Below, piece after piece: positions 3,777 to 63,715 of a stretch of DNA of 64,000 bases; the stretch's first letter is position 1; each line of letters opens with the position of its first letter. The notes under the pieces were generated by a model. That model was not told the DNA's origin, did not search any database, and saw nothing but the letters and a program-made list of their open reading frames with translations. Both the position numbers and the translations under genes were made by a program. The stretch covers positions 11,952,335 to 12,016,334 of the forward strand of contig NC_092669.1 of the NCBI RefSeq assembly GCF_032118995.1, written 5' to 3'. This stretch comes from Asterias amurensis. Lineage: Eukaryota; Echinodermata; Asteroidea; Forcipulatida; Asteriidae.

Positions 3777-4530
3777 TATTATTAGAACACCGGACTCAAG
3801 CTCTGTTGATGTTCTTTTTGAACAGCAGAGTGTGGGTTCAAGTCCCGGTCGAGACACTTGTGTCCTAAAGCAAGACACTTAACCATTATTGATAAGTAGT
3901 TCGAATGGATAAGAACACCGGACTCAAGCTCTGTCGCTGTTTCTTTTCAGCAGAGTGTGGGTTCGAGTCCCGGTCAAGACACTTGTGTCCTAAAGCAAGA
4001 CACTTAACCATTATTAATACCTAGTTGAATGGATAAGAACACCAGACTCAAGCTCTGTCGCTGTTTCTATTCAGCAGAGTGTGGGTTTGAGTCCCGGTCA
4101 AGACACTTGTGTCCTAAAGCAAGACACTTAACCATTATTGATAAGTAGTCGAATGGATAAGAACAGCGGCCTCAAGCTCTGTCGCTGTTTCATTGTTACA
4201 TTGGAGCCGAGCGAATATTAGAACACCGGACTCAAGCTCTGTTGCTGTTTCTATTCAGCAGAGTGTGGGTTCGAGTCCTGGTCAAGACACTTGTGTCCTA
4301 AAGCAAGACACTTAACACGTAGCCGAATGGATAAGAACACTGGACTCGAGCTCTGTCGCTGTTTCTATTTAGCAGAGTGTGGGTTCGAGTCCCGGTCAAG
4401 ACACTTGTGTTCTTAAGCAAGACACTTGTGTTCTAAAGCAAGACACTTAACCATTATTGATACGTAGTCGAGTTGTGTAAGAATATCGGACTCGAGCTCT
4501 GTCGCTGTTTCTATTCAGCAGAGTTTGTGT
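3777..4530 (+). repeat. Tandem array of a tRNA-SINE-like unit, about 120 bp, six or more copies
   Basis: Each unit contains 'GAATGGATAAGAACACCGG' (box A-like), 'GTGGGTTCGAGTCCCGG' (a good box B) and 'AAGACACTTAACCATTATTG'. Units start near 3784, 3905, 4022, 4145 (truncated), 4212, 4325 and 4470. The phrase 'ATTGGAGC(C/T)GAGCGAATATTA' precedes both the first and the fifth unit, so blocks of more than one unit were copied together. SINEs are normally dispersed; a head-to-tail array is unusual. Confidence 0.8.
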
Positions 4531-12354: not shown

Positions 12355-12868
12355 TTAGGTATCTGAAAGCACACAAATTTGTGCAAACAAGTGTGTGTTT
12401 TTCTTTCATTATTCTCTTGCAACTTCAATGACCAACAATTGAGCCAACATTTTCAAATATGTTTTATTTTATACATACTATTATGCTGGGATACATCAAG
12501 TGAGAATACCGGTGTTTGACAATACTACCAAACGTGTCCAGGGGTGGATTTCACAAAGGTAGTCCTAACTTAGGACTAGTTCTAGGCAATGCTAAGAGAT
12601 AGGACCAGTCCTAAGTTAGGATGAGTTACTGGTCCTAACTTAGGACTAGTCCTAGGCAATGCTAAGAGATAGGACCAGTCCTAAGTTAGGATGAGTTACT
12701 GGTCCTAACTTAGGACTAGTCCTAGGCAATGCTAAGAGATAGGACCAGTCCTAAGTTAGGATGAGTTACTGGTCCTAACTTAGGACTGGTCCTATCTCTT
12801 AGCATTGCCTAGGACTAGTCCTAAGTTAGGACTACCTTTGTGAAATCCACCCCAGTGCCTTTTAAGAA
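12355..12868. repeat. MITE family A, copy 2, truncated and split by a foldback
   Basis: The right half of family A (from 'GAAAGCACACAA' to 'GTGTCCAG...CAGTGCCTTT') is interrupted by the foldback at 12541-12852, proving the foldback inserted later. Confidence 0.75.
12541..12852. repeat. Foldback element B, copy 1, with internal 70-bp triplication
   Basis: Terminal arms are 'GGGTGGATTTCACAAAG' and 'CTTTGTGAAATCCACCC'. Inside, a 70-bp unit with 'TCCTAACTTAGGACTAGTCC' and 'ATGAGTTACTG' starts near 12561 and repeats at 12631 and 12701, ending in an inverted partial copy. Flanking CAG on both sides may be a 3-bp target duplication. Confidence 0.85.
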
Positions 12869-14330: not shown

Positions 14331-17300
14331 CTGAGAAAAGAAAGTTATCAGTAGGATTAGAAACTTTGCATGGTGGAAGTATCGGGCATGTACGCTTCGT
14401 TTTTGAAAGAGCAAGGACACCAAGTAACTTTCTCCTTGGTAAAGGGCACCCTATGATTGAGGAAATTGTAAATTTCTACTGAAGCATTTCAAGGGCACCA
14501 AGGCAATAACAAGGGGGCATGGAGGCTTTCGTTGCCTCCGTGAGGTATCAGGCCTCGATGACTCTTTTAAATCGTTGGTACTCTCTCAACTTTTACCAAC
14601 AAACTAAAAACTTGTTCTCTAAATGAATACTAACGCGATACTGATGTATTTGTATGCGGAAATAAAAACTGCTTTATTTTCTGTCTAACACCTGTTTGTT
14701 TTGTCCTGTATTTTAATGCCTGTCTGTCTTTTTTGTCTGTCCGTTCATAGGCTGGGGAACAAAAGCTGTGCTTCAACCCGGACCTAGATGTTGCATCTTG
14801 TTTAAAGTTTCATCTTTTAATCTCTTTTATATTTACTATAATTTTGACAATCTTACTCTGTATTATCAGTATTTGCAACATTGAATAAACAAATCTATCT
14901 GTTTTAGTCTGTCCGTTCATAGGCTGGGGAACAAAATCTGTGCTTTCACCTTTAATCTTTTATATTAACTATAATTTTGAAAATCTTACTCTGTATTATA
15001 CACAACATTGAATAAACGTATCTATCTATCTGAGAGGTTTGAGGTAGCACCGTGTGAAAATCTTTTTTGAGAAGTGTTGGTTCTAAAAAGAATTTCATTA
15101 AATTAGATAAACTTCGTCACTATGTGAGGGGTTCTGCAAAAGTAGACTGGTGCGGAATCAACTGACAATTTGGCTCCCCTAATGCAAGACCGAATTACTT
15201 TGAAAAGCCAAACTCGAGCCCGCCTGTGGGCGACTGAGTGAGTTTTATTCCTACCTGAAGTCTGGTGAGTTTCTGCTCAACATCGAAGGAGGTTTTTTCC
15301 TCCAGGAAAATCGCTTGCTTCATTACGGCGGCCATCTCTATGATCTTAGCTGTTGTTGCGATTGACATCTGCAGAGAAATGAAATAGTTTAGGATTAACT
15401 CAGGCTTGGAGTTTCATCTTTAAAAGCGCAAGGCCTTTTTTATTTGGCAGTAATAGTAATATCAAATAATTGCAAATGACAAAAAGATAGTACGAAGGAT
15501 TTTTAAAGAAGAATTTTACAAGAACATTTATATAGGTACAGAAAACAGTTGTTATTATACAACAAAAATATTCACAAAATAATTCATTCAAAAATACATG
15601 ATTTTATAAGCAAGAATTAAGGGAAGGAAAACATTTGTTATTATACAACAAAAATACTCACACAGTGAAATTATTCAAAAATACAAGATAAGCAAGCAAT
15701 ATGGGAAGAAGACAAGTTATTATTAGACAAGAAAAATACTCACAAAATAATTTATTTAAAAATACAAGATTTTATAAGCAAGAATTAAGGGAAGGAAAAC
15801 AGTTATGGTTATACAACAACTACATTCACAAAATGAAATTGTTGGAAAATACAAGATTTAAGCAAGAAATAAGGGAAGAAAAAGGTTATTATTATACAAT
15901 GGGACAATTATTATTCATTATTGGTTTAAAAATGCAAACATGCAAATTATGTAGGTACACCAACAGCAACAAAACTTATTTTGTTGTTGTTGGTGTAAAC
16001 TTCATAATTTGTAGTTCAAAATGCAAGATCATTTTAGCAGGAAATATGGAGAGAAAACAATTTCAAAGATTTACAAATTATGTAGATACACAAACAACAA
16101 CAAAAATATTTAAAAATGCAAGATCATAAGCAAGAAATATGGGAAGAAAGCAATTTCAAAGATACAAATTATGCAGGTACACCAACAGCAACAAAACTAT
16201 TTTGTTGTTGTTGGTGTAAACTACTTAATTTGTAGTTCAAAATGCGAGATCATTAAAGCAGGAAATATGGGAAGAAAGCAATTTCAAATATTATAAAGAT
16301 AGAAAAGCAAGAAATAATGGACGAAAATAATTCAAAGTTAAACAAATTATGTAGATACACCAACAACAATAAAAATATTGAAAAATAGACAAGCGAGAAA
16401 TATGGGAAGAAAACAATTTCAAAGTTAAACAACATATGAAGGTACACCAACAGCAACAAAAATATAAAAAAATGCAAAGCAAGAAATGAGGTAAGAAAAC
16501 ATTTCAAAGATTGTACAAATTATGTAGTTACACCAACAACAACAAAAACACATACTTTAAAAGACAATAAGCAAGAAATAAGCTCATGGTGTTATAAATG
16601 TCTTCATTATTATTAATATTTAAAATTTGATAGTATACTTACTTCTTGTTGCTCAGCATGCTTCTCCAAGCAGTCTTTATCAAATCTATTCGCCATCAGC
16701 ATCCGACATATCTGTTCTCGGTAGCTACTCATGATGAGGTCAAGAGCCGACTGGTGTTCCTCTAGCGCCACGCGGAGCTCCCGGTTCTCTCGCTGCAGCT
16801 CGCGGATTTGTCGGTTCTCCTGCTGGATACCGAGGATGAGGGCGGAGCGTGGACGGTGACGAGCGACGCTGTTCATCTCTTCCACTTCCTCCTGGTACTA
16901 CGCAGAGAGAAAAAGCGGTGAAAATCAGAAAGTCAGTTTTGTGTGTCATAAAAAAAACAGGTGTTTAAGATTCTGAATTTTTTTTTTTTAAACCGATTTT
17001 CTAGTGAGAGAGATCATCAGAACTTTTGAATCAACTAATAACTGTCTGTAATGTGATATCATCAAAATTGATTGGATTTTGACAAAAAATTGCACTTAAA
17101 AGATTATTAGCCACAGTGGTATTTTACATCCTTTTACTGTGAGGTTAGAGTGACTGTAGATTTAGAGAATTTATTTTATTTTATTTTAAGAGTGGTCTCC
17201 CCTCCTAGACGCTTTGGATTGCGGCTCTACGAAGCTACATGTACATGTACGAAGGCTTCAACAAATTGTTGATATTTTCATGATCTTGTCTCACCTGTTT

Positions 17301-21073: not shown

Positions 21074-21462
21074 ATTAAAGGCAGTGGACACTATTGGTAA
21101 TTACTCAAAAATAATTGTTAGCATGAAACCTTACTTGATAACGAGTTATGGGGAGCTGTTGATAGTATACACATTGTGAGAAACGGCTCACTCTGAAGTT
21201 TAACGTAGTTTTCGAGAAAGAAGTAATTTTCTACGAGTTTGATTTCAACCTCAGAGTTAGATTTGGAGGCATCAAAATCAAGCATCTGAAAGCACACAAC
21301 TTCGTGTGACATGGGTGTTTTTACTTTCATTATTATCTCGCAACTTCGACAACCAAGAGCTAAAATTTGACATGTTTGTTATTTTGTGCATTATTATGTT
21401 GAGATACACCAAGTGAGAAAACTGGTCTTTGACAATATTACTAATAGTGTCCGGGTCTTTAA
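21074..21462. repeat. MITE family A, copy 3
   Basis: Full-length copy, 'TTAAAGGCAGTGGACACTAT' to 'AGTGTCCGGGTCTTTAAG'; the centre has diverged. Confidence 0.85.
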
Positions 21463-24361: not shown

Positions 24362-26172
24362 AACTTCACACCCCTATTTCCCTTCCCCGGAGATCTTTAA
24401 TTCTTCCTCCTTGATTTGTATTTTGCTTCTCCTAATAATTTTTTTCTCTCTTCTTCCTTTCTCCTGTAGCCATCTTGGCGGGCACCTGCTGTTACCACGA
24501 AACCTTGATCGTGGCTTAATTGAAGGTGACAACATTGATGAAATTCCGCTGAGCGGGAAATAAAAAAATATCAGTCCGCTTTGCCGTTGAAGACTCGACG
24601 AAGATCGAGGCCGTCAGGCGTCAGACTCGATAAAAACAGGTGCTTGTTTATTACAACGAAACAAGCCACAAATCGGTAATTGCAAAGTGTAAGCCAGACT
24701 AAATTAGCGTGATTGAGAATTTGGTAATATTTTTTTTAATTTTTTTTATATTTTTTTTATTATCAGTACGACAGCGGGAGATCGTTGATTACTTCCAACA
24801 GAATCCGATATTGGCTTATTTTATTTCTGGATGAAGATATTGGTAATAATTGCTCCAATTAGAAAGTCTATACACATGGACGGCTGGTTAATTTTCATCA
24901 TCTGGAAGACCGCTCAATTTTAGCGTAGTGTTATTAGTAAGTCTTGAACCAGAAATCGAGTTAGGACTGCTTGTGTTGGCGCCATCAGTAAACCGTGAAG
25001 TAGCAAAAAAAGAGAGACATATTTTCGATTGGCCATGCGGGCCCAATGTACATCACAATGCTATCTAATCCAGTGACGAGAAAGCAAGACGAGTGAACCG
25101 GAATACGCGTATATTTCAAGTTCGCAAACCACCGAAAGAAACTCATGATTTGATAGTGATGTTGAATTTACATCGGGGATAAATAACATTAATTTTGACT
25201 TGACCAATACACCGATGTGTGTTAGCACTGTATACTCAGTACTTTTCCGAGTTCTGTGAAGAACAAAAATCACAAACATATTACTCAGGTGGGATTCGAA
25301 CCCACGACCTTCTGCAATTCTAGAGCAGTGTCATACCAACTTGACATGATGCTAATCTAAGGACATGCTATTCAGGTGAAAGGAAGAACATGGCGGGGAA
25401 ATGATTAGGAAAGACAGACGACTTTGATCTATAGTCTCGCGGGATGCATCAACGTCTGTACGTGTGGCCCTGCTGAGATGATGCCATATCGATTATAATT
25501 CCGACAGTGACCACCAGGGCGGCTTACCGGTATAAAAAATCATCACGTACACCACTACTAATAAAACAAATTAAAAAAAACCAAGACCAATCCAGATACA
25601 AACAGCTTGATCTCCTCATAACTCCTTGAACAAGAGACTACACTTGAAGTTTATTCTTAGCATCTATCTCCCAACGTCCAGACGTCACTTAAACAAACAC
25701 TGAAGCCAGACGCATTTGGGGTTTTCATGACAACACCAAGGTTTTCTCGGCTCCAGAGCAAAGGAAAAAAACAACAACACGGGGTCAAATTTATTCTCTC
25801 GTCGGCTCCCTGATCTCCAAGACGACCCTTCCAGGAAAACTGACACCTCACCAGCTCCACTCTCCTACGCCAGTTTAAAAATAGATCCGGCCGGCGATTG
25901 GTGAACCGGTTTAAGGACTACGTGGTCCCAAGAGCTAATTATCATTTTTATTAATAACATAAACCGAACCGGGGCGTTGGGAAACCGCGTCCAACTACTC
26001 GAACGGCACGCTGGAATTTTTCGTGCTCGCGTTATCTCGGGCGAAGCCCATAAGCCAGGCTCGACGGGTGTGGAACAGGGGTGAAAGAGCTCAAGACGAC
26101 GGTGGTATTGACGAAGAGGGAGGTACGTCCAGCAGGAGACAACACCGATACCACGTTAGGACAATTGATGAG
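24362..26172. other. Upstream region of the tetraspanin gene, no other gene seen
   Basis: 24560-25160 has no recognised feature. 25500-26172 is less AT-rich and should contain the promoter and 5'UTR: 'CCGGCGATTGGTGAACCGG' (about 25888) includes an inverted CCAAT box. No TATA box is convincing. Confidence 0.35.
25165..25370 (-). repeat. tRNA-derived SINE family T, copy 1
   Basis: On the minus strand: 'GTTGGTATGACACTGCTCTA' (box A region), 'GTCGTGGGTTCGAATCCCAC' (box B), then 'CGGAAAAGTACTGAGTATAC' and 'ACACATCGGTGTATTGGTCA'. Other copies at 26726, 56236 and 62866. Confidence 0.75.
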
Positions 26173-26241
26173 ATGGGGGCGCAGGAGGGGTGTTTGATGT
26201 GCTTGAGGTGCGTCATGGTGTTCTTTAACACACTGCTATGG
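26173..26241 (+). CDS. Tetraspanin exon 1
   Basis: 23 codons from ATG at 26173 to TGG before GTGAGT. The frame upstream is open to about 26023, but the MGAQEGC start gives the normal tetraspanin N-terminus. Two degraded copies of this exon follow within 310 bp. Confidence 0.9.
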
Positions 26242-29200
26242 GTGAGTTTATATACCTAATTTTGTTTTTATTTAAATTTTGGTATATTATTGATAAAGAC
26301 ACTGATGGTACTATTGGTAATGACTCAAAGTAATTGGGAGCGCAGAGGGGGGGGGGGGGGGGGTGGCTACTATTAAATGTGCCTGTGATGCATTGTGGTG
26401 TTTTTGAACACATGGGTGAGTTTTTACACCAGAACTGTTTTTGAAAAGGTTGGGGGGGGGAGGGGTTGTCCACTAATGTGCCTGAGGTGCATGATGGTGT
26501 TTTTCAACACACTGCCTTGGGTGATTTTGTTTTTACCAAAAATGTTGTTTGTGTACACAACATTGTTAAAGGCAATGGACACTGTTGGTATTGAAAGAGA
26601 CAATTTCTCACTCAAATTCAAAGGCTTTTGAAAGTGTACAACAAATACTTTATAATTATTATCTTGCAACCTCGACGACCAATTGAGTCCAAGTTTTCAC
26701 AGATTTGCATAATGTTGACATAATAAATGTTAAATTTGCATCGGGGATAAAGAATATATATATATTTTTTTTACCCATACACCGATGTGTGGTAGCACTG
26801 TATACTCAGTACTTTCCCGAGTCCTGTGAAAAAATATCACAGGCATGTTACTCGGTGGGATTCGAACCCACGACCCTTGCAATTCTAATATAATGTTGAC
26901 AATAATATGACCAAAGTTGCCCAGTGCAATACAAAGTTGTGTACAGTATTTTTTAAGATTGAAAGTTTTTTGTTTTCATTTGTTAATTGTTAATTTGTTA
27001 ATTTATTAATTAGTTAATTAGTTATTCATAAAAACATATTGAATATCATGAACAGCTAAGGCAAAAAAAAAAAAAAAATACAAGGAGAAAAAAAACTGAC
27101 CACAACTAAAAGCTTAAAAAATGTTTTAAATATTGCAAGTTAAAAAGTTTTAACAAGCTTTTCCCCCATTGAACAGCTCAGAATTCTGGGCGTCTGTCAA
27201 CCTGTGAAGCATAACAAACTTCTAAGCAAAAAAGGGTTTGCTGAAAAGAAATGTACCACCCCTTTATGTTTTGAAAACTAGAGGATTGGAATAAATGTAC
27301 TCTTCCAATAACCACTGACGTCACTCCCTTTATGATAAAATATAATATATGTCTTGAAAACTGGAGGATTTGAATAAAATGTTACTCCAAAAACCAAGTA
27401 TGACGTAGGTCTACCATATCTCTATGATATGTTTCTTGATAACTGTAAGAGGATTGGATTGAATGTACTATTCCGATAACCAATGATGTACCATCCCTTT
27501 GAAGACACTGGACACTATTGGTAATTGTCAAAGACCAGTATTCTCACGTGGTGTATCTCAACATATTTATGCATGAAATAGCAAATCTTTTAAAATTTAC
27601 ACTCAATCGGTCGTCGAAGTTGCGAGATAATAATGAAAGAAAAAAACACCCTTGTCACAAGAAGTTGTGTGCTTTCAGATGCTTGATTTCGAGACCTCAA
27701 ATTCTAAATCTGAGGTCTCGAAATCAAAGTCGTGGAAAATTACTTCTTTCTCAAAAACTACATTACTTCAGAGGGAGCCGTTTCTCACAATGTTTTATAC
27801 TATCAACCTCTCCCCATTACTCGTTACCAAGTAAGGTTTTATGCTAATAATTATTTTGAGTAGCTACCAATAGTGTCCACTGCCTTTAACCAATGATAGC
27901 GCACTTGTACACAAGTCAAAACCGATCAACAACGATGAACTCAAAACAAAATGGCACCTGCTGAGAAAGAACAGGTTGAAAGAAACGTAAGTCGAGATTG
28001 AATGGCGATATTAAACTGGGCAAGCACAACAATCCACACTCTGATAATAAATTCATGAACTGCCTGCCCGGCTGCACGAAGTCAGAGCCAGTTAGTTTAG
28101 GTCGAGTTGACTCACACGTACGGTTATGTTTTTTCTCTTATGCTTTTATTCTAGCACTGTGGTTTTAATGTTAAAGCCCACAATAAAGATACACAACACA
28201 TTGTTGTTTATGTTGTTGCTGTTGTTATTGTGAAACTTGTGAAAATTTGAGCTCAATTGGTCGTCGAAGTTGCGAGATAATGATGAAAGAAAAAACACCC
28301 TTGTCACACGAAGTTGTGTGCATTCAGATGCTTGATTTCGTGACCTCAAATTCTAAATCTGAGGTCTCGAAATCAAATTCGTGGACAATAAAACATTACT
28401 TATTTCTCGAAAACTACGTCATTTCCGAGGGAGCCAATTATCACACCATTTTATACTATCAATCTCTCCCCATTACTCCTTACCAAGTAAGGTTTTATGC
28501 TAATAATTATTTTGACTAATTGCCGATAGTATCCACTGCCTTTAAAGGTGCAGTCATAAATGAATGCCTTTTGGATGTTATGGTTTGGTGAATCAAAGTT
28601 CACTCCACACAAATCATGATTAATGAACAGTTTAAAAATGCGAACCAAATACGAGTTACATTGGCAAGCGTGTATCAAGATCCCAATCTGACATAGACGC
28701 ATTGGAATGCATCTCTCTACTTATGTTACACATGTTTGACATTTTCGCACCTCGGAAAAGTTTATCTATGGACAACCGGCGGATACCCTTAAAGGCGTTG
28801 GGGGTTTAGTCTGGTGGCTTTAAAGGGACATTGCAAATATATATTGACAGAAATATTGGCACCTATATTCACGACTTGTAGGCTACCACAAGTCGCAAAT
28901 ATTTGCGTCAATATTTGCAACTTGTTGTACAAGTCGTGAATATGTTGGCGTCAATATATGTTTGCGAAGTCCCTTTAAAGCCACCATAGTTGAGTCTGGT
29001 GTAACTTTTTTGCCCGAATTGGAGATCCGAGATAACGCTTTGCGATAATTTTGTACTGACAAACAATTTCGCTTTGTCATGACGTAAAGGCAATGGACAC
29101 TATATTGGTGATATTACTTAAAACAAATTTTGGCATGAAAACTTACCTAGTAACGAGCAACGGAGACTGTTAATAGTATAAAACATTCGGAGAAACGGCT

Positions 29201-38200: not shown

Positions 38201-41200
38201 ATTTCATAAAACCGCCCCGTACCCCCTCCGGGGTTTTATGCCATCAAGATATAAAGAACACGTGCATGTTCGAGATTCTTATTTGGTTCGAGCGACGTCA
38301 TAAAAAAAATAGTGGCCGCGTTTTCGAGGTTTAGGTTGGGGCCGCTAGCAGATAGTATTGTTTTTCTATATTTAAGCAATATTTTTCATAATTAACTATT
38401 TTTGAATCCGCCGGGGATCAGCCACAATCTGCAGCTGTGTAAAGATACAGATTTCCAATTAGTTAACGTTCGTATAAACAATCGATTTTGGTAAGGAACC
38501 ATCTAAAGTTCTATTTAAAAAGCCTAACTGAAAACCAGGGCAACTTTGCACAAGATTAAACAAGTACCGGGTTGTTAAACTTTTGTTTCAGGATAATGCG
38601 CATTCGTGTTTATATAAAAGGTACCACTGCCCCCTTACCTTTGCCTCCTTCAACCTTAATTTGGGCGCCTGTTGGGCTCGTGACGTCATATGCAAGGGGT
38701 CATGTAAATTGGTAATTACTCAAAATAATTTTTAGCAATTTTTTTTTGAAAAAGATCATTGTTCTTGTTTTAATGGTCAATCGCGTTCAGTCTCCCCTCA
38801 ACTTTAAAGGAATTTTTAATTTACGAATGTGACGAGAGCTCTCAGCGCGTATAGGCTGGTGCAATTACCAGGGAGATTTCTATTTTAAGACGGCCTGCGG
38901 GCTAGGCCTCGACTCGCTCGTGTGCAAATGAACTTTTTGTTTTATTCTGTTTTGTACACACAGGGAGTTGTTTGGACACATGGCGATACGGCACAAATTT
39001 TGCAATCACTCTGAGTAAATAAATAATTGTCACGAAATACGCCGATGATTTCGAAACAATTTTTTTTTGTGTGATATGAATTGGTAACAAATATTAAGTA
39101 GAGAGAGTTATGTGTTTAATGCAGGGACTTTATTGAACAAAATATAGGCGTGTAATGAGGTGGTCTAGCTGGCGCTTAAATTTGATCGCTAGCTAGACCA
39201 GCATGCACCTCATTCAACAGTTAGCGCTTGCGCAATGGGTATTTGCCAGAAGATAGGGTGCGTTCGTTTAGCTTCCCTGGGTCGACCCGGTCTTCCCCCG
39301 GTGCGTTCGAATAGCCTTGACGTCATTCCATGGGCTCATACGGGTCAGCCCCCAGTGCCCTGCTTGTGGAGTGGGTCACTTGGGGGCTGGCCCGAGGTGC
39401 ATGACGTCACTACTAGAGCGGTGAGTGATCGTTCGATTAGCTCTTGACAGGGGCTCACCCGAGTGAGCACCGCGGGGTAGACACAGGGAAGCTAATGGAA
39501 CGCACCAATTGTTTACGTTGTTCTAAGCATGCACACATTTCCAAGAACAATGGTTTTAATTGCTTAGTCTGCTGCCACCTAGAGTCCTCAAAAGTTAAAT
39601 TTTATTTATCCTTGTTTTCGATTTTCATAGTTAGCTGGTGTCGCCATGCTCGGCTTCGGTTTATGGTTACGCTACAATCAGGTTTTCTTCCCTCATCTGG
39701 CGGCTACCAGCGATGAGGAAGTACTATCCGCAGTGAGTGCCTACAACATAGGAACCTATGTACTCATGGCCGTTGGTGGCGCTATTATGACCATAGGAAT
39801 TCTGGGATGTTGCGGGGCCGTCAAGGAAAGCATATGCTTACTTGGATTGGTAAGACAGTAAAGTATGTTTTATTAATAATGCATTATCGTTATGACATTG
39901 TGACGTGCCATGGCCTAGCAGTTACTGGACTCAATCAGCAGAACGTGGGTTTGAATCCCAGTTGTGACACCTGTGTCCCTGAGCAAGACATTTAACCATT
40001 GCTTCGTCCTTCGGATGGGACGTAAAGCCGTTGGTCCCGTGTGTTTTAACACAGGGAAAAAAACCCAGTTCACTGATGAAAAGAGAAGGGGCTCATAACA
40101 TGGTGTCATTGAATGGAGACCCACATACCATTATTTGGCGACTTAACCAAATAACAAGATGGCCAATCTTTTCTTTCGAATGGTTCAAATCGAAAATTCA
40201 CCCCAAAGACTGTGGCAAGTCCAGACACAAAGACAAAATTAAAAGACATAATTATGCTGGATATGAAGAGGGGGAAAAATACTAATTGATGTTTTTTTCT
40301 TTTTTTTAGTATTTCGTGGTACTGTTTCTTCTGTTCGGAGTCGAAATCGGAGCGAGTGCCTGGACCTACCTCAATCGGGAAGAATTGGGCGAGAAAGTCG
40401 GCGACTACTTCGAGACGCTGGTCAAAGATAAATATTCTACGGAATCGAATACGCAGGTTGCTGTGGACTACACGCAGTCGAGTGTAAGTGTATTATATCT
40501 CATGATATAAACCATTGACGTCACAATGACGTCACATTAATTTTTAGAGCGATAACCAAACGTATACATTTTCCTTGTACACGCGACGTAGCTTCCAAAA
40601 TGGCCGCGAGCGTCCCAGCCAATCAGTAGTAGACGCGTGTGTGAGGGCGGAACATGGGGTTCAATGTAGCCTCATTAATAAAATAAACACATCCGTTTAC
40701 TGAGACAACGAAGGCACCGATTGCCTCCATGCCCCCTGGTCATTGTCTCGGTGCCCTTACTTATACCCCAGTAGAAATTTACAACTTCTAAGGCTACTCG
40801 TTACCAGGAGAAAATGCCTTGTGGTCTACTTTACCAAACGAAGCTTACAAGCCTGAATTTATTAGACGAAACCTTTTGAAGGAGTCATTTACCATGCATT
40901 TGAGACCGCTCGGACCAGGGTTGAAAAGGTCACCATCACACTGACCGCTGGTTGCAATTCATAAGCACTTAACAGAATTAATAGTTGTTTAAGTCCGTGA
41001 ATCTTGGGCAATTAAAGCTGTTTCGCATCGCCTGGGTACACGAGCCATTTACCGGCGTGGAGTTGCTGTCTCGACGCGACCAGAAAAACCACTCGGTAAA
41101 TTGAAATGTGATTAAAGAGATGTGGGTGTTCGTGTAGTGTTATATTGTTTTAAAACCTTAAAGGAGTTGTGCACTCTTGCAAATAAATGTGTTTAAAAGA

Positions 41201-44200
41201 CACTGGACACTACTGGTAATTACTCAAAAATAATGTTCAGTAAAACAATTATACTTGAACGAGCAATGGAGAGCCTTTGTTTATTCAAACCATAGTAAGA
41301 AACTGCTTCCTCTGAAGAAACTTTTTCTTTTCATAAGGGTATTTTCTCACTTTTATCGACTTCTATTGACTTTTAAATACACAAAATTAATTGTGAAACA
41401 AGGTAGGGTTTTTGTTAATTCATGATTCACTTGATGACCAATTCAGTTCAGACAAAAATTAACGTGTCACAGACTATTTTGTTATTATGTATGTCTGGAT
41501 ACACCAAGTAATAAAACTGGTCTTTGCGAATTACTAAAGGTAGTTTTTTTTTACCCCCCCCCCCCTTTAACCATTTCTGTTGTGTTTAAGCAACCCCTCT
41601 AACTTTTTATTCCAACAGTTAAAATGTTGTGGAGCTAACGGCCCGGATGACTGGCTTATATCGGGGCAGTTTATACCGCAATCATGTGGCGCCAACTGCA
41701 CGCTGGACTGTGACGCCGATGAGGGCGTCTTTGAGGATGTAAGTACCTGTATACCTTTATCTCGGTCATGTTCCCTGTTTCCAATAACAGTAATGCATGC
41801 TCACATTCACTGCGCAAACATGGCACCAGGCTATTATTTCGTCCAGCCCCAGTTTGGTTACAATGAGTTGGAATGGAGTAAAATCAAGATGGCCACTCGA
41901 TTAGCTTTCCAAATACCTATTGCGCAAGCGCTACATGTAACTGTTGCATGATGTGCATGTTGGTCCAGCTAGCGATCAATCAAACTTGATCGCTAGCTAG
42001 ACTAGCATGCACATTCCACGCCCAAGCGCGCGTACAGAGTATTTGCGATAAGGTCTATACTAAATGATTTATAGCTTAAACATCTGACGTCGCTGAGTTA
42101 CACCAGAGATCTGCCTCTTAGCACCTGTCCATAATCCCCTCCCATTAATTTAACATGGCCTTCATGGTCCTGGATATTCACAGTTAAATCCGACGTACAT
42201 GTGTATACTTAGTCAATAGCTGTATTGGGTGCGTTCGTTTTGGCTCCCCTGGGTCAACCCCGGTCTGCCCCGGTACGTTTGAATAGCTTTGACGGGGCTC
42301 ACCGGCACGGGTCAGCCCCCATCGCCCTGCTTGTGGAGTGGGTCACTTGGGGTGACCATGGACGAAGACAATATATCTTTTTTGTCCTCCATGGGGTGAC
42401 CTGAGGTACATGCCGTCACCACGAGAGGGCGAGTGTGATCGTTCGATTAGCTCTTGTCAGGGGCTCACCCGAGTGAGCACCGCGGGGTAGACCCAGGGAA
42501 GCTAACCGAACGCACCCCCCCCCCCCCCCATGATAAGGGGAACAGTTTTCATACCCTGCCCTTTGCCTTACAAACAGTTTTACTTTTCTTTTTTGTTGTA
42601 CAGGGATGCAAAGATAAAGTTACAGAAATGTTAGAGAAAAATATATACACAGTTGTTGCTGTAAGTTCATCGGTGGCGGCTTTCCAGGTGAAACATTTTT
42701 TTCTTTCTATTTAAGGTTTTAAAAAAACACTTCTGCCGTTGACGGCGCGCATCAAAATGATAATGCTTTGACGTCGTGTCTGGGAGTTTGCTATGGGTGC
42801 GTTCGTTTAGCTTCCCTGGGTCGACCCTGGTGTGTGACGTTTTTTTTCTTTCCAGGACGAACGTGTGCAGATAATTACCCACGTTCGTCCTGAAAAATAA
42901 AAACGCCACACACCGGGGTCGACCCAGGGAAGCTAAACGAACGCACCCTATGTTAGTTATAAGCTTCAACAAAGTGGCTCTACAAATTGGAGCTCCCTAC
43001 CATGGCGTATAACATGAGTGCGTAACGGAGTTTTTCGCGAATCGTTCTGAAAAGCGCTGCATGGATAGAGTGTTCGATTTTTTTTTTTTTTTTTTTTTTT
43101 TACACGATTAAAATCTAGGGGAACAGGTGGGTCTTAAGAGCCCTTTTGAAGGCTGGGATTTTGAGTTCCTGGTCTGGATGGGTAGCGACAATGACAAAGG
43201 CCACGTGTGTTTTCATCATGGAGGAAGGAAAAGAAGGAGCTCGAACGAAGGGACTTCAAAAGTCGAACCTGCGGTACCGCGGTCGTTTAACGACACCTCG
43301 TAATCACCCACATACCTTACACAGACAATGGGCGACCTGGTGTATGTGAGTTTGTGCGTGCACACTTTTGGTTCTTCACTCAACTATGGTGTCGTATGGC
43401 GTATGGATATAATACAGAAAAACAACTTTTTTGAGACCTGATAAAAATTGTGTACACTTGTGCTCACCAAATCGAAAAACACAATTGAATACCAACTACC
43501 CTTCAGTGCATATACCCAAATTTTGATCCACCGCTATTGACCGGAAAGTTACAAAAAATGTAAAAATATGCCATGATGTTTCAGCGAAACACCACAAACG
43601 GTAAATGAAAACGTGTATATTCACAATTCTTGTCTCCAATGATTCAACTTTACACGCAGGCAAGAGCGCAGACTGGCGGTACCACACGTTCTGTACAAAG
43701 AGATTTAATCCTACTCGTTAATCGGCCGTCCAGCTGGAGGTCTCCTATCTTTTTCCACTGGCCAGACAGGGGCATTGTCAGAGTATTCTTTTGTTACTCT
43801 GCGGTTTTGCGGATCGTTCGAGCTCCTTCTTTTCCTTCCTCCATGGTTTTCATGGACTGCGAGGGATTTACCGGTTGATGAGCGGAGTGAATAAGAACAA
43901 GTCCACAATGAAAGGAAAAGGAGAGCTAATCCGGGCGCAGTGATTGAGTGATTTATAACTGTGGACCATTGTACGGAGTTGAATATGTTGGGCAACGTAA
44001 GAAGTGGAGAGGTGTGCGTGTGTGTTTGGGGAACTTAAAGATAACTGTGTTGTGTGTGCGATGATAAACTATAAATTAAGGTGCAAGTAAAAAACGTGAT
44101 AGAAAGTTACAAGAGTTGGGCCAGCACAATGTTGAGCGTTGAAACACCAGCGACAAGAAAATACCGACAGATGTAGCGTCCACTACTGATGGGCACATTT

Positions 44201-44708
44201 GTGATGGGAGTAACCGGTTCTATTTTCTAACCACTGGTTGAATAGTAACTTGTATGACAATGAATGCTGCCAGTATGGTGTATTTAAGCTGGTGGTGCTG
44301 TTTGGTGAGTAATGGGGCTCAACAAAAACTCTGATCCCTATAATATATATATATCAGTGGGCTCAATAAAAATTACGAAGCCAGTAAGCGTAACTATTTG
44401 CGAAGCACAGGAGAAAGGTATTGCTTAAAAGAAACAGGTGCAAAATTATATCGTGTTTGTGCAATAATCACTGGAAGGTTAGCATGCCTGTTCGTGCGCT
44501 TACGGTTATGCAGCGCTATGAAATGGGAAACGGCCGCTAAGCAGCTCTATGAAATTTGGCCCTGGCATTAACTGGATGTAGAAGTTCTTCTTACCTTGTT
44601 TTCGTTGTTGTCATCTTCCCTCAGATCCTAGTGATGATCCTATCGGCGTGTCTGTGCAGAGCTATACGCCAGGCTGACCGAGAATACGACAAATGTGGTA
44701 CCGTCTGA
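26173..44708 (+). CDS. Tetraspanin (complete, six coding exons, 249 aa)
   Basis: Join 26173-26241, 39631-39849, 40310-40483, 41619-41738, 42604-42687, 44625-44708; every junction is phase 0 with GT-AG. The protein starts MGAQEGCLMCLRCVMVFFNT, has TM1 at about 13-33, a small loop, TM2 at about 62-84 with the family LGCCGAVKES motif, TM3 at about 95-115, a large extracellular loop with CCG at 157-159, further cysteines in QSC, NC and DC, and GC at 195-196, then TM4 at about 207-232 and a short tail ending YDKCGTV. Juxtamembrane cysteines are typical palmitoylation sites. Known role: scaffold of tetraspanin-enriched membrane domains with integrins and other receptors at the plasma membrane or endosomes. 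The 13.4 kb first intron is full of MITEs. Closest vertebrate relative not determined; CD9/CD81-like features in the TM1-TM2 part. Confidence 0.92.
26334..26425 (+). pseudogene. Degraded copy 2 of tetraspanin exon 1
   Basis: 'GGGAGCGCAGAGGGGG' matches the exon 1 upstream flank, then ATGTGCCTG, a TGA where exon 1 has AGG, ...GTGTTTTTGAACACATGG and a kept GTGAGT donor. Six bases are missing near the end. Host-gene exon duplicate, not usable as it stands. Confidence 0.75.
26448..26545 (+). pseudogene. Copy 3 of tetraspanin exon 1, open frame, weakened donor
   Basis: Reads GCPLMCLRCMMVFFNTLPW with no stop, compared with GCLMCLRCVMVFFNTLLW in exon 1. The donor is GTGATT instead of GTGAGT. ATG at 26476 could serve as a start. 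The coding frame is intact enough that use as an alternative first exon cannot be excluded. Confidence 0.65.
26564..26720. repeat. MITE family A, copy 6 (truncated)
   Basis: 'TTAAAGGCAATGGACACTGT' at the left end and 'CGACGACCAATTGAG' inside; the right end is replaced by a SINE. A further scrap lies at 26299-26340. Confidence 0.7.
26726..26895 (-). repeat. tRNA-derived SINE family T, copy 2
   Basis: Minus strand 'GGGTCGTGGGTTCGAATCCC' (box B) followed by 'AGGACTCGGGAAAGTACTGA' and 'ACATCGGTGTATGGGT'; box A part is missing. Confidence 0.7.
27497..27889. repeat. MITE family A, copy 7
   Basis: Full-length, centre 'TTTCGAGACCTCAAATTC' / 'GAGGTCTCGAAATCAAA'. 26900-27496 before it is AT-rich intron without other features. 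Confidence 0.88.
28229..28548. repeat. MITE family A, copy 8 (one end missing)
   Basis: Begins at the internal 'TGTGAAAATTTGAGCTCAAT' and runs to 'GTATCCACTGCCTTTAA'. Confidence 0.82.
28813..28988. repeat. Foldback family M with TTAA ends
   Basis: Arms 'GGTGGCTTTAAAGGGACATT' and 'AGTCCCTTTAAAGCCACC', with inner inverted pairs 'CACGACTTGTA' / 'TACAAGTCGTG' and 'GCAAATATTTGC'. Confidence 0.75.
29084..29432. repeat. MITE family A, copy 9
   Basis: 'GTAAAGGCAATGGACACTAT' to 'GTGCCCATGCCTTTAAA'; subtype without the DNA-symmetric 'GAGACCTCA' centre. Confidence 0.8.
29560..29745 (+). repeat. Local duplicate, left copy
   Basis: 'GTTTCTGCAGGAGGCCGGGA', 'CTTGTTAGATCGAAGGGG' and 'ATGTCAAAGCACTGAG' match 30500-30790 in the same order, with about 100 bp missing in the middle. 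Confidence 0.75.
29961..30356. repeat. MITE family A, copy 10
   Basis: Left end carries a doubled 'CAGTGGACACTGTTGG'; right end 'AGTGTCCATTGTCTTAA'. It lies between the two halves of the local duplicate. Confidence 0.82.
30500..30790 (+). repeat. Local duplicate, right copy
   Basis: Longer counterpart of 29560-29745. The segment just upstream (30356-30490) has 'ACGGTGTTGAAATAACACCA' and 'ACACCAATGGTGTCGAT', a separate inverted-repeat-like element. A 166-codon open frame crosses this region but has no support as a gene. Confidence 0.7.
31003..31351. repeat. MITE family A, copy 11
   Basis: 'TTTAAAGGCACTGGACACTA' to 'AAAGGTGTCCAGTT'; subtype with 'AAGGCCTGAAGCC' centre. Confidence 0.82.
31352..31770. 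other. Unassigned intron 1 segment, GC-richer
   Basis: 31355-31590 is GC-richer than its surroundings and resembles a dispersed element ('GAGAACTTTTAGCCCTTGAC' on the minus strand), but no second copy is present in the window. No gene seen. Confidence 0.3.
31771..32017. repeat. Foldback element with 'ACTCTTTTA' motif
   Basis: Arms 'CTACTCTCTTAAGTAAAAGA' and 'TCTTTTACCTTAAGAGAGTAG'; 'AAAGAGTG' / 'CACTCTTT' and 'ATATGGCTCTT' recur inside in both orientations. Confidence 0.8.
32030..32552. repeat. Fragments of family C and family A (copies 12a, 12b)
   Basis: 32033-32095 is a family C left end. 32108-32296 is the right part of family A with centre 'TTCAGGCCTGAAG'. 32430-32552 is another right part of A ('TTATTTTGAGTAATTACC' to 'AAATGCCTTTAA'). 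Confidence 0.7.
32553..33330. other. Intron 1 segment with a short 'GGGCTACATTTAGG' tandem
   Basis: 32631-32700 has four units of 'GGGGCTACATTTAGG' type. Remainder is AT-rich, no gene. Confidence 0.45.
33333..33720. repeat. MITE family A, copy 13
   Basis: Full-length with centre 'GAGACCTCAAATTCTAAACT' and both terminal repeats. Confidence 0.88.
34054..34393. repeat. MITE family A, copy 14
   Basis: 'TTAAAGGTCCTGTACACGTT' to 'CCCACTGCCTTTAAAGG'; the right end is rearranged. Confidence 0.8.
34394..35225. other. Intron 1 segment with a repeat E piece
   Basis: 34695-34800 resembles repeat E ('CGTGTGACGTCAGATGTTCA'). Nothing else recognised. Confidence 0.4.
35228..35475. repeat. Foldback family C, copy 7
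   Basis: The clearest copy: arms 'GGGGCCAATTTCATAGAGCT' + 'GCTTAAGCA' and 'TGCTTAAGCAGCTC' + 'TACGAAATTGGGCCC'. Confidence 0.85.
36345..36500 (+). repeat. Repeat family P, copy 2
   Basis: 'GAAAGGGCAAGGGCACCAAG', 'GAATTTCTACTGGAGCATTT' and 'CCAGGGGGCATAAAGGC'. 35476-36344 and 36501-36780 are AT-rich intron with no feature. Confidence 0.75.
36781..37169. repeat. MITE family A, copy 15
   Basis: Full-length; both ends and the 'GAGACCTCAAGTTCTAAATC' centre kept. Flanked on both sides by related 'CCCCTCTCACTCTGC' phrases (36588 and 37172) that suggest a second short duplication. Confidence 0.88.
37485..37722. repeat. MITE family D, copy 2
   Basis: 'TTAAAGGAACACGTTGCCTT' to 'AGCAACGTGTTCCTTTAAA'. 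Shares its right TTTAAA with the adjoining family A copy. Confidence 0.85.
37718..37912. repeat. MITE family A, copy 16 (truncated)
   Basis: Left half only, ending in 'CTTCAGGCCTGAAGCC'. It abuts element D at a common TTTAAA. Confidence 0.78.
37913..39152. other. Intron 1 segment, no exon seen
   Basis: 38700-38735 is a scrap of family A. A 115-codon open frame at 37987-38334 has no splice support. Confidence 0.35.
39153..39214. repeat. Short palindrome family G, copy 1
   Basis: 'AATGAGGTGGTCTAGCTGGC' against 'GCTAGCTAGACCAGCATGCA' + 'CCTCATT'. Copy 2 at 41951-42013 lies in another intron of the same gene. Confidence 0.75.
39256..39506. repeat. Foldback family F, copy 1
   Basis: Arms 'GGGTGCGTTCGTTTAGCTTC' + 'CCTGGG' and 'GGGAAGCTAATGGAACGCACC'; 'CTTGTGGAGTGGGTCACTTG' inside. 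Two other copies lie at 42227 and 42795 in intron 4/5 of the same gene. Confidence 0.82.
39631..39849 (+). CDS. Tetraspanin exon 2
   Basis: 73 codons, acceptor TTTTCATAG and donor GTAAGA. LAGVAMLGFGLWLRYN (end of TM1), then TM2 and GCCGAVKES. Confidence 0.93.
39903..40060 (+). repeat. tRNA-derived SINE, related to the array at 3.8 kb
   Basis: 'GTGCCATGGCCTAGCAGTTA' (box A), 'GTGGGTTTGAATCCCAG' (box B), 'TGAGCAAGACATTTAACC' then 'CCTTCGGATGGGACGTAAAG' and 'CCGTTGGTCCCGTGTG'. This is the fuller form of the unit that is tandemly repeated at 3777-4530. Confidence 0.75.
40310..40483 (+). CDS. Tetraspanin exon 3
   Basis: 58 codons, YFVVLFLLFGVEIGASAWTY (TM3) and the start of the large extracellular loop; acceptor TTTTTTTAG, donor GTAAGT. 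Confidence 0.93.
40707..40830 (-). repeat. Repeat family P, copy 3
   Basis: Reverse orientation: 'GATTGCCTCCATGCCCCCTG', 'CAGTAGAAATTTACAACTT'. Confidence 0.7.
41193..41544. repeat. MITE family A, copy 17 (diverged)
   Basis: 'TTAAAAGACACTGGACACTA' at the left; the right end is weak ('TTTGCGAATTACTAAAGG'). Confidence 0.72.
41619..41738 (+). CDS. Tetraspanin exon 4
   Basis: 40 codons carrying the diagnostic LKCCGANGPDDW and three further cysteines; acceptor CCAACAG, donor GTAAGT. Confidence 0.93.
41951..42013. repeat. Short palindrome family G, copy 2
   Basis: 'ATGTGCATGTTGGTCCAGCT' + 'AGCGATCAA' against 'TTGATCGCTAGCTAGACTAG' + 'CATGCACAT'. Confidence 0.78.
42080..42215. repeat. Dispersed repeat E, copy 3
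   Basis: 'AACATCTGACGTCGCTGAGT' to 'CACAGTTAAATCCGACGTAC'. Confidence 0.45.
42227..42517. repeat. Foldback family F, copy 2
   Basis: Ends 'GGGTGCGTTCGTTTTGGCTC' and 'AGCTAACCGAACGCACCC'; inside, 'TCAGGGGCTCACCCGAGTGA' as in copy 1. Confidence 0.82.
42604..42687 (+). CDS. Tetraspanin exon 5
   Basis: 28 codons, GCKDKVTEMLEKNIYTVVAV, last loop cysteine and start of TM4; acceptor TTGTACAG, donor GTGAAA. Confidence 0.9.
42795..42948. repeat. Foldback family F, copy 3 (short, near-perfect palindrome)
   Basis: 'GGGTGCGTTCGTTTAGCTTC' at one end and its exact inverse at the other, with a second inverted pair 'CAGGACGAACGTG' / 'CACGTTCGTCCTG' inside. Confidence 0.85.
43130..43850. repeat. Inverted repeat of 32 bp around a 560-bp spacer
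   Basis: 'CATGGAGGAAGGAAAAGAAG' + 'GAGCTCGAACGA' at 43217-43248 is exactly inverted at 43814-43845. The two flanks otherwise differ. A poly(T) tract lies just before (43079-43100). Located in the last intron of the tetraspanin. Confidence 0.75.
44380..44567. repeat. Foldback family C, copy 8
   Basis: Right arm 'CTAAGCAGCTCTATGAAATT' + 'TGGCCC'; the left arm is decayed. Confidence 0.6.
44625..44708 (+). CDS. Tetraspanin exon 6 (last coding)
   Basis: 27 codons plus TGA: ILVMILSACLCRAIRQADRE then YDKCGTV; acceptor CTTCCCTCAG. Confidence 0.92.
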   Translation: MLVMILSACLCRAIRQADREYDKCGTV

Positions 44709-59100: not shown

Positions 59101-61570
59101 TTAAAAAAAAACAGCAATATTTTTGCCGTATTTTGCAAATATTTGTGTGAATTGTCTAAATGCTAGCAGGGTATAATAAATGTGTTTATCAAGAAATTAT
59201 TTTCATACAAACTAATGTTTATTTTAATCTTAAACAGTTAAAAGAAAAAGTTTCCAAAATGAATTTTTTTGGTGTGCTTTGAATGAAACTTGCGCAAACT
59301 GCGCATAAATTAGCTCGTTAAGTCTCGATATGCATGACACGACTTACATCAATCTGGATTCTGTCCCACGCCGCGGTGAACCCCTCTCGCTCCGGATGAC
59401 CGTAGTTGGCCATTTCTTTCTTTGACCCCTGCAAGATGTACGCCTTCACATAATCATTTTCGTACCATAGACCAACGAAGGCAATTATGACGATGGACAC
59501 CTCTAGGCAGATGCAGAACACCACTAGGAAATAGAACTGTGGATGATGAAGAAAAAAACAAATTGATTATAAAGAGGTTTGGCAGGTCTATGGACAATAA
59601 TAAAAATACAGCATTTGTAGGGTGTATTTCATCTGTTAAAGGCAGTGGACACTATCAAATCAAATAATTATGTACAAAAGTTACTTGTCAAGGAGCAATG
59701 GAGAGCTGTTGATAGTATAAAACATTGTGAGAAAAGGCTCCCTCTAAAGTAAGGTAGTTTTTGAGAAAGAGGTAATTTCTCACTCAAATAATAAACAACT
59801 TCAGGCCTGAAGCCATTTTTAAGGCATCTGAAAGCACAAAACTTGTGCAACAATGTTTTTTTTTCCTTGCATTATTCTCTTGCAACGTTGATGACCAATT
59901 GAGTTCAATTTTTCATGGATTTGTTAACACTCCATTTCTGACATGTTTTTACCAGGGCATTGAGGCACTACATGTAGGTAACCACCGAGACTGTTCGTTC
60001 AAGTAGGGAAAAACTGTGGATAAGGCGCCTTCAGACCATTAAACCCCAAGGTCTGACATGTCTGATCTAAGGAAATGAGTAATTGCTTCCTTTTCCTCAC
60101 AAATATCCCTCTTTTTAGCCTGCCTCATTCATCATTTAATTAATTATTTCTTCTGCCTCTTCCAACCCTTGATATTGTCCATTGTGTTTCCGTCTTTCTT
60201 GCGGTCAAACCAGCCCCTTCCCTCCAACCACCCCCCCTCCTCCGTCCTCATATTAATTGTTCACCCCTTGCTTCTTTCTGTGTGCTTTCTGACTTCCTCT
60301 ATTCATGTATTTCCACTTCACTGCTTTTGTATGTTATATAAAAAAATTATGTCATTTAGCCTTGGAGAAAAACTCCTAAAATCGAAATGTCAAGCAATTA
60401 ACCACTTTTTGTAATTATCTTTATAATATTCATATACTCATTCTGTGTGGTTGTTGCTTAGTCATTGTGTTATAACCTTCAACCAACAATGCACTATGCA
60501 TGATGCATCAACGCTGTAATTACAGCCAAGCCTAATCAACAACCCCCCCCCCTCCCACACAATCTAATAAATGTTTCAGTGTTGCCTCGTTAGTGGCATC
60601 CACTAATTAATCATTCAAACTAATGACTAAGCCATTGAGACTTCTTCTCTTAACCGTGACTCAAGAGACATTTGTTTTCCGAGACAATAAAAGTCCATGC
60701 ATCTCATGATGCTCATTTTATACTCCACAGTCCCACAATAAATCTCTTACAAAACATCAGAACTGACAACATCGGCTCTTTTCAGAGCCAACACTCCCTC
60801 AAAAAAGAGATTTCTCCTGAAGACGAGCAGAGTAAATTGTTTTGAAACGTCGAGACCACACTGGCTCTTTTCAGAGCCAAAACTCCCAGAAAAGAGATTT
60901 ACAGATACACGCAAAAAATAGATTTACACATACATGTACATGTACCCGCAAGTTTACTAGTTATTAGAGCTGCATTCTCCTGAAGACGAGCAGATCGAGT
61001 ATACTGTTCGAAACGTTGAGACCACATCTTTTCAGAGCCAACACTCCCTTAAAAAAAAGCTGCATTCTCCTGAAGATGACCAGAGTATACTGTATACTGT
61101 TGGAAACATCGAGATCGCACAAACTCTTTTCAGAGCCAACACTCCCTCAAAAGAGCTGCATTCTCCTGACGACGAGCAGAGTGTACTGTTTGAAACGTCA
61201 AGACCACAACGGCTTTTTTTCAGAACCAACACTCACACAAAAAAAATTCAAACATACATCGCAAGAAAGAGATTTACACATACCCACAAGTTAACCATTT
61301 ATTAATTTGTATAGTTTCTTCCGACTCTAAACATATATTTTTTGTGGGGCCTAGGCAATTAAGACTTCTTACCGTGACTAAAAGACATTTGTTTTCCGAG
61401 ACACCAGCGCAGCATCCAACCAGAGCGACCAGGATGATAATGAAGGCAATGATGAGGAGTGCATAGGCGATGTAGATGTAGGAGACACCACCGATCAGCG
61501 AGGCGTAGGTTCCGTTGACCACGCCCACTAGGACGTGGATGCCGACGCCCAAAAGGAGCACCCCTGTACA
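56086..61570 (-). CDS. Tetraspanin, TSPAN4/TSPAN9-like (first coding exon not found)
   Basis: Exons 61570-61373, 59536-59348, 58311-58177, 56791-56708 and 56184-56086 join in phase 0 and give 234 residues plus stop. They hold the end of TM1 (GVLLLGVGIHVLVGV), TM2 with VGCCAGVSENKC, TM3 (FYFLVVFCICLEVSIVI), a large loop with EQCCGVEAPSDWYEYG, TPDSCC, KGCG and SCG (six or more cysteines), TM4 and a tail KNRCCGTSYYDMD. The CCG, PDSCC and GC spacing is that of the TSPAN4/TSPAN9 branch. Known role: membrane scaffold; TSPAN4 and TSPAN9 act with integrins and in migrasome or platelet membranes in vertebrates, which need not apply here. The N-terminal exon (about 20 residues, ending in a TM1 start) must lie right of 61570, probably beyond the window. 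Confidence 0.9.
56236..56440 (-). repeat. tRNA-derived SINE family T, copy 3
   Basis: Minus strand 'GGTCTAGTTGGTATGACACT' (box A), 'GTCGTGGGTTCGAATCTCAC' (box B). The best preserved head of the family. Lies in the last intron of the right tetraspanin. Confidence 0.78.
56708..56791 (-). CDS. Right tetraspanin, TM4 exon
   Basis: 28 codons, SCGDAMVETVNSGLYLIGVI then CIACILLQ; acceptor TTGTTGCAG, donor GTAGGT. Confidence 0.9.
56800..58170. other. Intron with a poly(G) tract
   Basis: 'AATCTATAAGA(G/A)CAATTAAAGA' + 'CATTCTGTG' occurs at about 56867 and 57026, a short direct duplication. A run of G lies at 57341-57358. No exon seen. Confidence 0.4.
58177..58311 (-). CDS. Right tetraspanin, CCG-loop exon
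   Basis: 45 codons, EQCCGVEAPSDWYEYGRFDS and on to PDSCC...SKGCG; acceptor TATCCACAG, donor GTACGT. Confidence 0.92.
59348..59536 (-). CDS. Right tetraspanin, TM3 exon
   Basis: 63 codons, FYFLVVFCICLEVSIVIIAF and on to ...AAWDRIQID; acceptor CATCCACAG, donor GTAAGT. Confidence 0.92.
59636..59928. repeat. MITE family A, copy 20 (truncated)
   Basis: 'TTAAAGGCAGTGGACACTAT' at the left, centre 'CTTCAGGCCTGAAGCC', right end lost after 'GACCAATTGAGTTCAA'. Intronic. Confidence 0.8.
60715..61290 (+). repeat. Tandem repeat with hammerhead-ribozyme-like core, four copies
   Basis: Units contain 'CTTTTCAGAGCCAACACTCC', 'GCATTCTC', then 'CTGA(A/C)GA', a 6-bp stem (GAGCAG / CTGTTC), and 'GAAACGTC' followed by 'GAGACC'. 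Cores lie at about 60817-60851, 60980-61017, 61070-61110 and 61166-61199; spacing is about 90-96 bp for the last three. The array is in the intron between the TM2 and TM3 exons of the right tetraspanin. Confidence 0.8.
61373..61570 (-). CDS. Right tetraspanin, TM1/TM2 exon
   Basis: 66 codons, CTGVLLLGVGIHVLVGVVNG and on to GCCAGVSENKCLLVT; acceptor TTTTTCATATCAG, donor GTAAGA. Confidence 0.9.
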
Positions 61571-63309: not shown

Positions 63310-63715
63310 GCAATACGGGGGAAATCTCATGCATTCTGACGACTTCTTTGTATTACGATCTTCTTCGTTTCTCTCTCTCGGAGAAAAACCTATCCTCCTC
63401 CAAGTGAACTTCCCTCTTCCATAGAAATCCTTTTGCAGGAGATACATCTCATGCATTCTGACAAATTCTTTGCATCACGATCTTCTTCGTCCCTCTCGAC
63501 AAAAAAAACCTCTCCTCGCTTAAACTTCCCTCTTCCACAGGAATCCCTTTTGCAGGAGAGATCTCACAAGATGCATTCTGACAAATTCTTTGTATCAAAA
63601 CCTTCATCTCTCTCTCTCTGAGAAAAAAAACCCATATCCCCTTCCAGTTGAACTTCCCTCTTCCACAGGAATCCCTTTTACATTTCATTGGAACAAGAGC
63701 GTATCCTCCTGCAAT
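63310..63715. repeat. Tandem repeat, about 110 bp unit, about 3.5 copies
   Basis: 'ATGCATTCTGACAAATTCTT', 'CGATCTTCTTCGT', 'TCTCTCTCGGAGAAAAAC', 'AACTTCCCTCTTCCACAGGA' and 'ATCCCTTTTGCAGGAGA' recur. 63716-64000 carries a run of C near 63808 and no gene. Confidence 0.8.

Follow-up and report, generated by a model that had tools for sequence, protein, structure and literature searches.

The first exon of a predicted CD9/CD81-like tetraspanin gene in a sea star genome has two diverged downstream copies, both on the same strand as the exon and both inside intron 1 of the gene. We consider it very probable that these copies arose by local tandem duplication of exon 1 and that they are now unused and decaying. 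The window, a stretch of 64,000 nucleotides at C22:11952335-12016334, belongs to a genome sequence of 491,506,623 bases in 23 contigs, and the positions given below are those of the window unless a contig or a locus is named.

The tetraspanin gene

The exon model was built from the sequence together with a profile and consists of six exons on the plus strand, namely exon 1 (26173-26241), exon 2 (39631-39849, with a Pfam match), exon 3 (40310-40483), exon 4 (41619-41738), exon 5 (42604-42687) and exon 6 (44625-44708, including the stop codon). With GT donors and AG acceptors, the six exons join in frame into a predicted protein of 249 residues. Judged by its sequence, the gene is a CD9/CD81-like tetraspanin: the joined protein covers the whole of the Pfam Tetraspanin profile (PF00335) with 181.6 bits, and the nearest solved structures are those of CD81 (7.3e-34) and CD9 (8.2e-34). 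A CCG motif, which in the large loop we take to be a hallmark of tetraspanins, is present in exon 4. Compared with CD9/CD81-like tetraspanins the gene itself is ordinary, and its peculiarity is limited to the copies in the first intron.

Exon 1 (MGAQEGCLMCLRCVMVFFNTLLW) opens with ATGGGGGCG, which places a G at both the -3 and the +4 position around the start ATG, and ends in phase 0 at the donor TGG/GTGAGT. Reading through this donor leads to a stop after VSLYT, so that a transcript starting upstream of exon 1 and using the donor of copy 2 or copy 3 would not encode the tetraspanin. Neither copy is needed for the gene model to be complete, and none of the five other exons of the gene was found to have a copy within 600 nt. 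Matches to tetraspanin exons were also observed to cluster on C22 (C22:12052747-12065382 and C22:666827-1002023), some of them near the gene and on the opposite strand.

Homology and extent of the copies

Copy 2 (26336-26415) and copy 3 (26450-26520) both lie on the plus strand and share with exon 1, hereafter also copy 1, a core of 53 nt that is in register at 26197, 26377 and 26476. The first-pass annotation had proposed that exon 1 occurs in three tandem copies with matching flanks, an arrangement that a match no better than chance would have spoken against. Local alignment of the parts behind the G-runs gave scores of 43 (copies 1-2), 68 (copies 1-3) and 59 (copies 2-3), each above all of its 2000 dinucleotide shuffles (maxima of 30, 30 and 38 respectively), and the three copies are thus confirmed. 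Some boundaries had to be corrected, as the exon part of copy 2 ends at 26415 instead of 26405 and that of copy 3 at 26520 instead of 26521, and exon 2 starts at 39631 instead of 39630.

The similarity extends from the G-rich start-codon tract to approximately 30 nt inside the intron, where in the alignment about 30 nt of the start of intron 1 (26242-26294, plus strand) are repeated behind both copies. Base differences in the exon core amount to 8 of 39 (copies 1-2), 7 of 45 (copies 1-3) and 5 of 39 (copies 2-3), and those in the first aligned intron columns to 6, 7 and 6 of 27 for the same pairs. These differences bear on whether the copies are an artefact of assembly or of haplotype. Long G-runs are error-prone and the PacBio coverage of the likely source assembly is given as 22.68x in PMC10625585, but the copies differ from one another at 5 to 8 bases in 39-45 with different indels, and their intron flanks differ too. 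A divergence of 13-21% between the copies makes the stacking of two alleles unlikely, and we regard an artefact as extremely improbable.

The copies were found to be confined to their locus. A scan of exon 1 over the plus and minus strands of the window gave a top score of 29 away from the locus, and no further match was found in genome searches with the region, with copy 2, with copy 3, with a degenerate exon 1 pattern allowing two mismatches and with the exon 1 peptide, in which only the best candidates are scored and very common words are skipped in the DNA searches. Since the genome searches gave no further match among the best candidates, a spread element or an exon of another gene is unlikely as the source, and both a second gene and a dispersed element were rejected as the origin of the copies. 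No paralogue similar enough to polarise the changes as an outgroup was found in these searches. With exon 1 as the query, tblastn recovered copy 3 with an E value of 3.6e-4 and 77% identity. The locus therefore shows what characterises a tandem exon duplication, namely adjoining exon-like copies on the same strand that score above chance and are restricted to one place.

State of copies 2 and 3

The start codon of exon 1 is kept in neither copy. At its position copy 2 reads ATTGGGAGCG and copy 3 reads GTTGGGGGG (with GTTGGG), and a search by eye found no ATG in 26336-26376 or 26416-26475. Two alignments placed the sequence around the G-runs differently, and because of this ambiguity we make no claim on the exact change of the start codon. 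The G-runs themselves, which had been reported in front of both copies, consist of 17 G at 26347-26363 and 9 G at 26452-26460.

Copy 2 has extra bases before an internal ATG at 26377, from which the frame reads M, C and L and then meets a TGA as its fourth codon, and 6 nt are missing near its 3' end; its donor GTGAGT at 26416 is intact. Copy 3 is open from an internal ATG at 26476 (MCLRCMMVFFNTLPW) and then continues into the intron. This ATG stands in a poor context, with position -3 occupied by C and position +4 by T, and the donor GTGATT at 26521, whose phase fits exon 2, has lost the G at +5 and pairs less well with U1. A mutually exclusive internal exon would need a 3' splice acceptor in front of it; by eye, no acceptor was seen before copy 2, and a short T-run followed by AG (TGTTTTTGAAAAG) located just before copy 3 could be a weak candidate acceptor. 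The first-pass annotation had correctly described the stop and the GTGAGT donor of copy 2 as well as the open frame and the GTGATT donor of copy 3; it missed the loss of the start codon in both copies, the 6-nt deletion in copy 2 and a repeat fragment between copies 1 and 2. Of the two options it offered, the decay of old duplicates is favoured by the absence of the start ATG from both copies, by the stop and the deletion in copy 2, and by the weaker donor and poor initiation context of copy 3.

Exon 1 and copy 2 have the same predicted U1 pairing energy (-10.4), the value for copy 3 is -6.4, and the four remaining donors of the gene range from -6.8 (the exon 4 donor) to -8.4. That copy 2 keeps the full TGG/GTGAGT donor at an energy equal to that of exon 1, though the rest of the copy is broken, might be taken to mean that the copies, without being translated, offer U1 additional places to bind or serve as decoy donors behind exon 1, where they would tune splicing or early elongation. 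At 13-21% divergence, however, it is not rare for a 6-base donor to stay unchanged by chance, and the donor of copy 3 has weakened; we consider such a role very unlikely.

Possible signals of selection

Copies 1 and 3 differ by seven base changes in five codons, two of which change the amino acid (V/M and L/P) and three of which are silent. When seven changes were placed at random, two or fewer amino-acid changes were obtained in 1.1% of 20000 trials (P = 0.011). The random changes created a stop in 23% of the trials, and as a stop is expected in just this fraction, the stop-free frame of copy 3 says little. The silent bias between copies 1 and 3 is a weak signal suggesting constraint on copy 1, on copy 3 or on both. 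Copy 1 has presumably been under selection throughout as a part of the gene, so the bias is no proof of selection on copy 3 and could stem from selection on copy 1 alone.

Changes unique to a single copy were also counted. Within the exon, copy 2 has three of these together with the deletion and copy 3 has none, and within the intron there are two in copy 2 and three together with an insertion in copy 3. The comparison of exon with intron gives a Fisher P of 0.076 when one indel per side is included and of 0.20 without indels, a weak hint that copy 3 may have been held longer than copy 2. Divergence between copies 1 and 3 did not differ significantly between exon (7/45) and intron (7/27; P = 0.36).

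These observations, together with the tblastn match, bear on whether copy 3 functions as an alternative first exon, which would be transcribed from a separate start within intron 1 and supply the N-terminus MCLRCMMVFFNTLPW from the internal ATG. Its frame is open with three silent codon changes against two amino-acid changes, its donor phase matches that of exon 2 and its U1 energy lies only a little below that of the exon 4 donor. On the other hand, the original start ATG is gone, the internal ATG has the unfavourable bases at -3 and +4 described above, the donor is without the G at +5, leucine has become proline in the last codon but one, and selection on copy 1 by itself could explain the silent bias. 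We regard it as unlikely that copy 3, with copy 2 dead, still serves or recently served as an alternative first exon, giving a tetraspanin whose N-terminus is shorter. If true, the pair of copies 3 and 2 would show an alternative start exon in the course of being born.

Local tandem copying in the window

Local tandem copying was found to be common in the window. A self-similarity scan, in which segments of 80 nt were compared with the following 320 nt at a threshold score of 43, detected 20 clusters scoring at least 43, two of which are the exon 1 copies and eighteen of which lie elsewhere. In one simulated window, none of the 3175 segments reached 43 in the same scan. Self-similar sequence makes up 6616 of the 64000 bases, 263 of them at the exon 1 locus, and with approximately a tenth of the window self-similar, an exon caught in such copying is no rare accident. 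The window is also rich in minisatellite-like arrays, whose periods lie at about 70 to 170 bp and which TRF places at 347-1169, 3784-4427, 12562-12794, 15540-16548, 60966-61189 and 63324-63679.

Thirty tetraspanin loci were compared and nine were dropped (those of the window itself, overlapping ones, and the loci L035 and L036). Three of the thirty are the exon 1 locus itself, and only one of the other 27, some of which are neighbouring exons of one gene, reached a score of 43. This locus (L011, on contig C12) belongs to another tetraspanin gene, is a direct parallel to the exon 1 locus and contains an array of three 215-bp units at L011:1695-2350. Each unit consists of about 16 bases from the end of a likely tetraspanin exon, the adjoining GTGAGT donor and some 200 nt of the intron, so that splicing of this gene may have a choice of three candidate donors, one per unit.

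The first-pass annotation had suggested that slippage or unequal exchange at G-rich DNA may have driven the copying. The window contains twelve runs of at least nine G or C, three of which have self-similar copies no more than 15 nt away, two of these at the exon 1 locus. Only one run was found near the eighteen other self-similar clusters, and G-runs as a general driver of copying are not supported. For the exon 1 locus alone such a role is possible, because the G-rich tract at the start codon is where the two copies set in. The G-runs may also have lengthened after the copying.

A dispersed repeat at the locus

The fragment between copies 1 and 2 (26295-26335, plus strand, head score 42) is the 5' end of a dispersed repeat and ends where copy 2 starts. 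A second copy of this repeat (26568-26735, plus strand, head score 36) follows copy 3; it is degenerate inside and its far end is approximate. On the strand of the gene, the repeat starts 53 nt past the exon end of copy 1 and 47 nt past that of copy 3, distances that would fit a repeat already in place before the duplication. From the 16 plus-strand heads in 64 kb, a given place is expected to have a head no more than 7 nt away about 0.4% of the time, a value calculated post hoc.

Repeat heads scoring at least 36 number 25 in the window in both orientations, 16 of them on the plus strand including the two at the locus, and a simulated strand gave none at a score of at least 26. Further examples, with a head like AAAGGCAGTGGACACTATTGGTAATTACTC, are located at 21077, 31005, 41196 and 46375. 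In 29 of 38 collected heads a TT precedes the head and TTAA thus lies across the repeat border; this TTAA may point to a piggyBac-like target site. The copies being carried by the dispersed repeat is not supported, as the repeat has many copies and the exon copies are found nowhere else. A comparison of the adjoining flanks gave no support to the repeat as an anchor of the duplication, the observed score being reached by 32 of the 703 pairs among the 38 heads (fragment included) and by 2974 of 10000 shuffles, or by 2527 of 10000 with the anchor corrected by one base. The sequence GTGGGATTCGAACCCACGACC at 26850-26880 presumably resembles a tRNA-type B box. A literature search with the word for the dispersed repeat returned no paper.

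Origin and meaning of the copies

Under local tandem duplication of exon 1, the explanation we prefer, a segment made up of the G-rich region at the start codon, exon 1 and some 30-50 nt of intron 1 would have been duplicated in tandem. There were probably two duplications inside intron 1, in which copy 1 would have given rise to an ancestor of copies 2 and 3 and this ancestor to the two present copies. The dispersed repeat may already have been located about 50 nt 3' of exon 1 before the duplication, and we suggest that the first duplication, with the start codon at one end and the head of the repeat at the other, joined the first copy into this head and that the new copy was then duplicated again. 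Exon 1 itself would still serve the gene as its first exon. Copies 2 and 3, having lost the start ATG while their G-tracts drifted, are probably unused, and the stop and deletion of copy 2 and the weakened donor of copy 3 would be marks of their decay.

Tandem exon duplications, including unannotated duplicates in introns, are surveyed in PMC9013439, which cites a 2002 study for tandemly duplicated exons in about 10% of animal genes. The present locus resembles the duplications of that survey in having a diverged exon copy in the adjacent intron and in the same orientation. It differs from them in that the exon concerned carries the start codon, which both copies have lost, and in that it was identified by its sequence. 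The same survey describes UGT1A, where each of thirteen alternate first exons is served by a separate promoter. Tandem homologous first exons ahead of common downstream exons are found in both cases, whereas here the original start codon is present in neither copy and the UGT1A exons, as described there, each have a promoter. In a literature search on tetraspanins, echinoderms and sea stars, the term 'exon duplication' was absent among the best 10 of 17 matches.

The locus is thus an instance of a known phenomenon, tandem exon duplication. On a small scale it illustrates clearly how, in the repeat-rich genome of a sea star, duplication in local tandem seeds introns with copies of an exon and its donor, which tend to decay. 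With copy 3 open and the two copied donors of unequal strength, the locus could be used to test whether such copies recruit splicing.
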